Shown piece by piece: positions 4,797 to 55,184 of a stretch of 56,239 nucleotides of DNA; positions within the stretch are counted from its first letter, which is position 1; each line of letters opens with the position of its first letter. This stretch comes from Candidatus Avelusimicrobium vaccinum (GTDB taxonomy: Bacteria; Elusimicrobiota; Elusimicrobia; Elusimicrobiales; Elusimicrobiaceae): NCBI GenBank assembly GCA_902794895.1, contig CADBIY010000006.1, positions 1-56,239 of the forward strand, written 5' to 3'. The translations under genes and the position numbers were made by a program. The notes below the pieces were generated by a model, which saw nothing but the letters and a program-made list of their open reading frames with translations, had not been told where the DNA came from and ran no database searches.

Positions 4797-4990
4797 AGAC
4801 TTTCTTTTTCTGGAAACAGAAAAAGAAACAAAAAGATTTCGGCCCACACTTACAAAAATCACGTTGCGGCGAGAAATTTTATAACTCGCGTTGCTCAAAC
4901 AATAACATTTCTACTCCGCCGCGACGGATTTTTGAAAGCCCGTTAAGGGCCGCTTAAAAGCGAAAGCGGTAAACGATCTTTTGTGTAAAC
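4797..4990. repeat. Structured dispersed repeat, copy 1
   Basis: The glgP-trmL gap is almost entirely hairpins. First is a perfect 12-bp stem (4801-4812 with 4817-4828) with a GAAA loop, followed by AACAAAAAG. Then comes an imperfect long inverted repeat (4854-4879 with 4907-4933) around the loop sequence AACTCGCGTTGCTCAAACA. Two smaller hairpins follow (GCCC-GTTAA-GGGC near 4938-4950 and CCGCTT/AAGCGG near 4951-4970). A related element lies at 54926-55080 with the same loop and same order but different arm sequences. No repeat-encoded protein is apparent. Confidence 0.75.
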
Positions 4991-8085: not shown

Positions 8086-8568
8086 TTAAAAAACCATTTC
8101 ATATTGGGAACCGTTCAGGGTCATGCCTAATGGTTCGCAAAGTTGTTTATCGGTGCCGGTGCAAGTAATTTTGATGAGTTCTCCGTTTTTGTTATAAGCA
8201 GTAAGTGTGTAATAAACAATGTCTCCCTGTTGGCGGTGGGAAACGATACATTTATCGGCCCCGCTGCAGGAATCGGCAAAAGCGGGCGTACTAAAATACA
8301 CGCTGCGGGAATTGGAACCAATGACGACCCGGGAGGCACTTCCGTTAGTTATTTCTGTGGCGGTTAAAAAGGAATTGGCAGGATAAGAATTACCGTTGAG
8401 AACATATTTTGCATTGATCCAATCGCTGGCGGCTTTTAAATTAGTTAATCCTTCCGTAGCGCGTCCCCGTTCCATGGCGGTGCGGTATTTCGGCAGAGCG
8501 ATAGTGACTAAAATGCCGACAATGACCATGACAATTAATAATTCGATTAATGTAAATCCTCTTTTCAT
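8086..8568 (-). CDS. Type IV pilin-like protein (class III signal peptide)
   Basis: A 160-residue prepilin. The leader MKRG is followed by FTLIELLIVMVIVGILVTIALP, so cleavage and N-methylation by a PilD-type prepilin peptidase is expected between G4 and F5, with the conserved glutamate at mature position 5. The hydrophobic N-terminal helix is followed by an AMERGRATEGLTNLKAASDW amphipathic helix and a beta-rich globular domain. That domain holds cysteines (SCSGADKC, TCTGTDKQLC) that could form two disulfide loops. A strong AGGAGG site precedes the ATG. It stands alone with its own promoter and terminator, away from any assembly genes, so whether it is a major pilin, minor pilin or pseudopilin is unresolved. 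Confidence 0.9.
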   Translation of the reverse strand: MKRGFTLIELLIVMVIVGILVTIALPKYRTAMERGRATEGLTNLKAASDWINAKYVLNGNSYPANSFLTATEITNGSASRVVIGSNSRSVYFSTPAFADSCSGADKCIVSHRQQGDIVYYTLTAYNKNGELIKITCTGTDKQLCEPLGMTLNGSQYEMVF

Positions 8569-54925: not shown

Positions 54926-55080
54926 TATACTTTTTCTCATGTGAGAAAAAGTAACAAAAAGAACACCGCCCAGAGGCGGCCCGCAGGGTCATAAAAAGCA
55001 GCCCGATTGGGAAATTTCGTAAACTCGCTTCGCTCAAACATACAAAATTTCTCTTCCAATCGGGCGCTTTTTATAAACGC
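54926..55080. repeat. Structured dispersed repeat, copy 2
   Basis: A perfect 12-bp stem (54928-54939 with 54942-54953, TACTTTTTCTCA arms) is followed by ACAAAAAG. Then come a CCGCC-CAGA-GGCGG hairpin near 54967-54980 and a long imperfect inverted repeat (54991-55018 with 55043-55074, arms around GCCCGATTGG) with loop AAACTCGCTTCGCTCAAACA. The order, the A-rich spacer and the loop match copy 1 at 4797-4990, while the arms differ in sequence but remain self-complementary. On the minus strand the loop reads FERSEF, a string I recall from many short hypothetical proteins, which are probably translated repeats. Confidence 0.75.
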
Positions 55081-55184
55081 TCCAAAAGGGCGGGGAAAAC
55101 GACCGTACCTCCCATAAGGAAACCACTTTTTTTGTAATTGTAGTTGTGCGGCCCATTAAGCATAATAGCCGGGCGGTATTTCAT
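55071..55184 (-). other. Short reading frame next to repeat copy 2
   Basis: A minus-strand frame of 37 codons starts at ATG 55184 (MKYRPAIMLNGPHNYNYKKS...) and ends in the repeat arm at 55071. Without an ATG, the frame extends a few codons upstream with FGVRPLD. Codon content looks protein-like, but there is no Shine-Dalgarno site, and part of it is repeat sequence. It may be the remnant of a gene end carried with the repeat. The rest of the 55081-55284 gap shows no gene I can support. Confidence 0.25.

Follow-up and report, generated by a model that had tools for sequence, protein, structure and literature searches.

Two intergenic stretches of the 56,239-nucleotide contig analysed here (the window, from Candidatus Avelusimicrobium vaccinum) raise the question of why a repeat should hold its shape while its letters change. 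The sequence-only reading had described two related multi-hairpin elements with a common loop and unlike arms, and had suggested either selection on folding, as RNA or cruciform, or a mobile element that remakes its arms. The two do belong to one family of structured non-coding repeat, at 4800-4956 (copy 1) and 54926-55095 (copy 2): a covariance model trained on relatives together with the two window copies recovers them with E values of 5e-24 and 2e-27, respectively, in a search of the window with filters off, and its next matches (E of 0.003 and 0.01) lie on the opposite strand of the same two loci. With up to three mismatches allowed, the loop pattern has two matches in the window, where chance predicts 0.17. 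The large arms are unlike between the copies and each pairs with its own partner, as had been proposed, with folding energies far below those of dinucleotide shuffles (z = -5.9 for copy 1 and -6.8 for copy 2; 0 of 200 shuffles in each case).

Both copies have the same layout. Besides a short hairpin (H1) and an A-rich linker (ACAAAAAG), each has a closing stem rich in GC and a long, imperfect hairpin with AACTCGCKTYGCTCAAACA as its cap. Copy 1 begins 3 nt past a stop codon. Its H1 (4801-4828; arms 4801-4812 and 4817-4828, loop GAAA at 4813-4816) is present in both RNA and DNA folds and covaries across copies, and is followed at 4829-4840 by the linker CAAAAAGA and the TTTC (4837-4840) that loop/linker pairing tests mark as the pseudoknot partner of GAAA. 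The fold also gives an outer stem, CGGCCC (4840-4845), with its complement GGGCCG (4947-4952) closing the element, and a long hairpin whose 5' arm is variable in sequence (4854-4882, from folds and covariation) and whose 3' arm (4902-4934) has a one-sided bulge, CTACT. The tip between them is AACTCGCGTTGCTCAAACA on the plus strand (4883-4901), and the cross-phylum mismatch test described below points to the minus strand as the one that folds. In copy 2, H1 (54928-54953; arms 54928-54938 and 54943-54953) has the loop ATGT, and the pseudoknot is weak, at about three pairs. The linker CAAAAAGA (54955-54962) is followed, within the linker region, by an extra GC hairpin, CCGCCCAGAGGCGG (54966-54979), recognised from the fold and from alignment with copies that do not have it. 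The long hairpin folds from a 5' arm at 54991-55021 and a 3' arm at 55041-55074 with a one-sided bulge, CTCTT, around the tip AACTCGCTTCGCTCAAACA (55022-55040, plus strand), which was identified by sequence and a pattern search; the mismatch test again indicates the minus strand (TGTTTGAGC-GAA-GCGAGTT) as the probable folded one. By sequence and alignment, the closing GGGCGGGG (55088-55095) is the partner of CCGCCC in intact relatives. The two tips differ slightly from the loop as first quoted, and the initial description had also overlooked the pseudoknot, the outer stems, the folding strand, the organisation in pairs, and the cross-phylum distribution.

Folding, not sequence, is strongly supported as the object of selection, in agreement with the first of the two original suggestions. 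In a set of 15 copies chosen by hand, compensatory changes occur at 26 of 35 pairs and 93% of cells pair; the covariation score of this set is 0.519, against 0.142 when shuffled. In an alignment of 90 matches, which was fitted to the covariance model and hence is biased towards it, the score is 0.538 against 0.133 (sd 0.006), with double, compensatory changes in 31 of 35 pairs, and it falls to 0.07-0.105 when partners are slid by one to three columns. The mini-hairpin inside the tip covaries as well, occurring as GC-TTC-GC, as AC-TTC-GT, and in larger versions such as GCGCGG-TTCC-CCGCGC. Across copies, one-sided bulges recur at constant positions, and some copies (L025, L034) carry slippage-type deletions bounded by short repeats.

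An H-type pseudoknot forms between the H1 loop and the linker downstream of the A run, and the words that match are new in each lineage. Within the genus these loop/linker words are GGAAA/TTTCC, GCAAA/TTTGC, GGCAC/GTGCC, GGCAG/CTGCC, GGCCT/AGGCC, and GGCGG/CCGCC, and the pairing score is 10.5 against 9.33 (sd 0.29) with linkers permuted (0 of 2000 permutations); at least four pseudoknot pairs are kept in only 34 of 61 copies. A cross-phylum set gathered by the tip alone gives 12.8 against 9.43 (sd 0.30; 0 of 1000), with words such as CTTGAT/ATCAAG, CTTGAC/GTCAAG, CTTGAA/TTCAAG, TCGCC/GGCGA, and GCGGCC/GGCCGC. The linker also mirrors the purine arm of H1 in 39 versus 10 informative cases (p = 4e-5), many of which differ little; this is the pattern that an intramolecular triple helix would need, and is suggestive only.

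To ask which strand folds, each element was folded without wobble pairs and isolated mismatches were counted, using one representative per sequence cluster. In the 96 clusters that come from other phyla, the quoted strand has 46 A.C mismatches (G.T when read on the complement) to 16 G.T (p = 2e-4), and 61 T.C (G.A when read on the complement) to 8 G.A (p = 3e-11). Because of this excess, the complement, with the tip TGTYYGAGC-GNA-GCGAGTT, is taken as the strand whose fold is kept, and RNA folding energy is better for it in 80 of the 96 clusters. Within the genus the counts of the mismatch test are small and give no significance, and in the genus alignment the G.T versus A.C count leans the opposite way, 76 to 35, with the excess coming mostly from one column. 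On the complement strand the triloop is GNA in 159 and ANA in 17 of 177 cases, from searches that favoured GAA. The sequence GCGAAGC forms an unusually stable DNA mini-hairpin. Papers such as PMC4686876 contain both this sequence and the mini-hairpin phrase.

The family extends well past the window. A search of the genome and its relatives, as the sequence-only reading had advised, found five copies in this 1.45-Mb draft (two on C6, the window, with others at C2:107172-107329, C27:6790-6949, and C9:24720-24873) and a widespread family, so the outcome named there as a refutation, a total of only two copies, does not hold. Of 25 genomes in the genus, 17 have 1 to 39 matches each, related species range from 0 to 39, and at the same threshold there are none in 16 genomes of the neighbouring family; phylum-wide, there are matches in 39 of 198 sampled genomes, with weak ones in some of those outside the family. 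Three genomes (G011, G018, and G024) have several near-identical copies at contig ends, as expected if these were recently amplified repeats. The tip pattern AACTCGCTTCGCTCRRACA occurs in at least 118 stretches (one genome per species) against about 7.5 expected by chance, by our own estimate from simple base counting. Hosts include Bacteroidota, Pseudomonadota, Bacillota, Nitrospirota, a Gastranaerophilales bacterium, CPR, and others, and in most of the matches listed the tip is flanked by long complementary arms that are mutually unrelated. In 19 host genomes there are 1 to 72 tip matches each, versus 0-2 for a reversed control pattern. We considered a viral origin and rejected it, as 63 viral-contig matches fall mostly in one repeated AT-rich context without complementary arms. 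In Rfam, only tRNAs match in the window, and 20 element loci give chance-level hits, none above the gathering score; a search of an open-access collection turned up no paper giving the motif. Our claim of novelty rests on these two results, and so common a feature may already have been recorded under a genus-specific name.

The elements are often arranged in pairs. Close pairs in the genus are convergent in 12 cases and divergent in none, Variovorax sp. OV700 has seven convergent pairs spaced 247-267 bp, and each of two Marinobacter genomes has seven. Four Variovorax units measure 565-580 bp between inverted repeats CCGAGGCCGG and CCGGCCTCGG and contain no transposase ORF; neither target-site duplication nor insertion into palindromes is significant in these four units with defined ends. 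Pairs in Noviherbaspirillum are divergent and mostly spaced 462-466 bp, and the core lying between their H1 hairpins is conserved; N. suwonense (L406-L419) has 72 tip matches, mostly in divergent pairs of about 465 bp with a conserved core of about 200 bp and outer hexamer-repeat tails (CAACGG) of varying make-up. On Paraburkholderia megaplasmids (H16-H22), a piece of about 64 bp around the H1 of the Variovorax unit matches at least 37-40 places per megaplasmid. The genes between convergent copies in G011 (hydF-like, rplM/rpsI, a phosphodiesterase) were set aside: they are housekeeping genes, and the number of such pairs is about that expected by chance.

Elements are intergenic and occur in all four orientations of flanking genes, as judged with a crude ORF caller. 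The genes flanking the window copies are housekeeping genes (trmL, tpiA), and at both loci the closest relatives carry the element and others lack it, their gaps being occupied by unrelated hairpins or pilin genes; in many relatives (L317-L326) the trmL gap holds another hairpin family (CCGGCCGGAAA...TTTCCGGCCGG) in place of the element. Elsewhere in this genome (L004, region of C16:17138), a weaker tip match follows closely on a tRNA gene; the 3' end of that gene and the hairpin after it (GGGCGAGCCATTTAAAAACCACGCG) have a second copy about 170 bp on, resembling an integration site. A pilin start lies within 800 bp of 35 of 54 sampled genus elements, and in 33 of these the pilin is transcribed away, compared with a chance proximity of about 7% from own-genome pilin density, in a sample that favours high-scoring copies and one clade. 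This position might reflect function, or spread by gene duplication. Matches to the type IV pilin N-methyl family number 62 in the genome itself (for example, at 8494-8565 of the window, minus strand), and pilin genes sit at different loci in related species, such as upstream of tpiA in some; from their positions, they look as though they were themselves moving. In the clade of G024, G073, and G089 (L331-L345), elements form part of longer modules (AGAAACAGTGTGGCYTAAACNAATCG...ACGGGCATAGAG), themselves repeated, that lie upstream of pilins and carry small 3' hairpins (AAAAGGNNNCCTTTG). Outside the genus, gene-linked regulation was rejected, as 100 neighbour proteins fall into 131 families, none found more than twice.

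We think it probable, with considerable reserve, that each copy is one half-unit of a mobile repeat that is non-autonomous, REPIN-like, and recognised in the form of a folded single strand. Each half-unit, of about 160-250 nt, folds into the H1 hairpin, the pseudoknot, and a long hairpin of about 60 nt whose tip is conserved; within genomes the copies amplify, and sites are filled in some close relatives and empty in others; and half-units often form convergent pairs, with those of Variovorax making units of about 570 bp bounded by inverted repeats. A mobile repeat is favoured because the family is patchy, amplified, and organised in paired units without a constant neighbour, and recognition in single-stranded form because the fold is strand-specific. 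A trans-acting enzyme or host factor would recognise one strand, most likely of DNA, when it is single, perhaps during replication or natural transformation, and would then copy or move the unit. Mobilisation would be limited to copies that still fold, so that the fold would be conserved while arm letters drift with compensation, and resident copies would decay afterwards. The original suggestion of a mobile element thus finds support in the patchy distribution, the near-identical amplified copies, and the inverted-pair units, and its proviso that the element remakes its arms does not: many copies within one genome share arms, so arms are a lineage trait and are not remade at each insertion. 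Several observations fit the mobile-repeat interpretation less well. No mobilising protein was found; Y1 transposases (RAYT) and reverse transcriptases were rejected as mobilisers since neither tracks copy number, and the REP-associated Y1 transposase PF01797 is absent from G000 (the genome of the window), G007, G011, G012, and G013, of which G007 has 34 copies and G011 has 39. No target-site duplication was detected in the four Variovorax units, a small sample, the strand test lacks significance inside the genus, many genus copies lie upstream of pilin genes, and transposition is deduced, with no event seen directly. A broader proposal, that these are a bacteria-wide class of mobile structured elements in which each end is a pseudoknot plus a long hairpin, the folded strand is read by a shape-recognising enzyme, and the tip module is possibly common with attC, is advanced only tentatively.

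The strand asymmetry bears on several alternatives. A symmetric cruciform, one of the forms first suggested, is disfavoured because mismatches are strand-asymmetric outside the genus, and the same result weighs against passive maintenance of palindromes, in which one arm is rewritten from the other by template switching as the DNA replicates, giving complementarity without selection. The long arms and the deletions in L025 and L034 would suit such a process, but it predicts strand symmetry and perfect palindromes, and leaves aside the one-sided bulges at fixed places and the covariation of a non-contiguous pseudoknot; we regard it as highly improbable. Ordinary bidirectional terminators or mRNA-stabilising hairpins between genes would account for the intergenic setting, for the start of copy 1 so near a stop codon, and for the terminator-like hairpins that several relatives have in the same gap. 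However, terminators need neither a conserved tip nor a pseudoknot; copies also lie upstream of genes and between divergent genes as well as downstream, those sampled in the genus being mostly upstream of pilins; and where pairs are convergent, the strand inferred to fold reads outward, not inward, making this explanation improbable too.

A structured RNA made from the TGTYYGAGC-GNA-GCGAGTT strand is a more serious contender, be it a protein-binding RNA, a 3' or 5' module of mRNAs, or the RNA of an RNA-guided or retro-type mobile element. That strand has the G.U-compatible and G.A mismatches, the H-type pseudoknot with a U-rich linker, the linker mirroring of the H1 purine arm, and the preferred RNA folding energy. 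Yet G.T and G.A mismatches stabilise single-stranded DNA too, and every gene orientation occurs, with no constant neighbour gene, no Rfam match, and no reverse transcriptase that tracks the copies; on balance we consider an RNA unlikely. We favour single-stranded DNA as the recognised form because of the analogy with REPINs and attC sites and the likeness to Vibrionaceae and Shewanella attC tips on the recombining strand.

If the mobile-repeat interpretation is confirmed, one structural design has been kept over many phyla with its sequence almost free, pointing to a partner, widely shared or widely transferred, that recognises single-stranded nucleic acid in folded form. The interpretation would also explain many unannotated long intergenic palindromes, which coincide with assembly breaks in the genus, and connect dispersed repeats with integron attC sites in a way open to testing. 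Such tests are feasible because copy-rich hosts are in culture (Variovorax, Marinobacter, Noviherbaspirillum, and Parabacteroides).

Among known systems, the triple-helix H-type pseudoknots of telomerase RNA and ENE-like elements are similar in topology alone (H1, loop pairing, and an A/U-rich linker mirroring a purine arm), and we claim no homology. MITEs with long terminal inverted repeats lack an ORF, as do the 565-580-bp Variovorax units, but no target-site duplication was detected in the four units, no parent transposase was found, and their ends are conserved in structure rather than in sequence. REP, BIME, and REPIN elements, which RAYT (TnpA-REP) mobilises, are likewise non-coding intergenic palindromes, single and in inverted pairs, amplified and patchy, with single-strand folding implied. 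REPs, however, are tagged palindromes of 20-40 bp with GTAG/CGTC (PMC3733652), whereas the elements here have another layout, of about 160-250 nt with a pseudoknot and a long hairpin, and copy-rich genomes are without RAYT-type genes. Integron attC sites differ in that the window elements have no R boxes (RYYYAAC/GTTRRRY) at their foot and are closed, by eye, by CGGCCC/GGGCCG or CCGCCC/GGGCGG; H1 and the pseudoknot are foreign to attC, and no cassette array is seen at the window loci. Nonetheless, attC sites likewise keep structure over sequence, act as a folded single strand, and have one-sided bulges. In cassette arrays of Vibrio, Aliivibrio, and Shewanella (L204, L426-L428) the attC tip TCGCTTCGCTCA is common with the element, and in some attC sites of these genera a tip identical or similar to that of the element (AACTCGCTTCGCTCAAACA, TTTCGCTTCGCTCA) lies on the corresponding strand, with the recombining bottom strand as reference.
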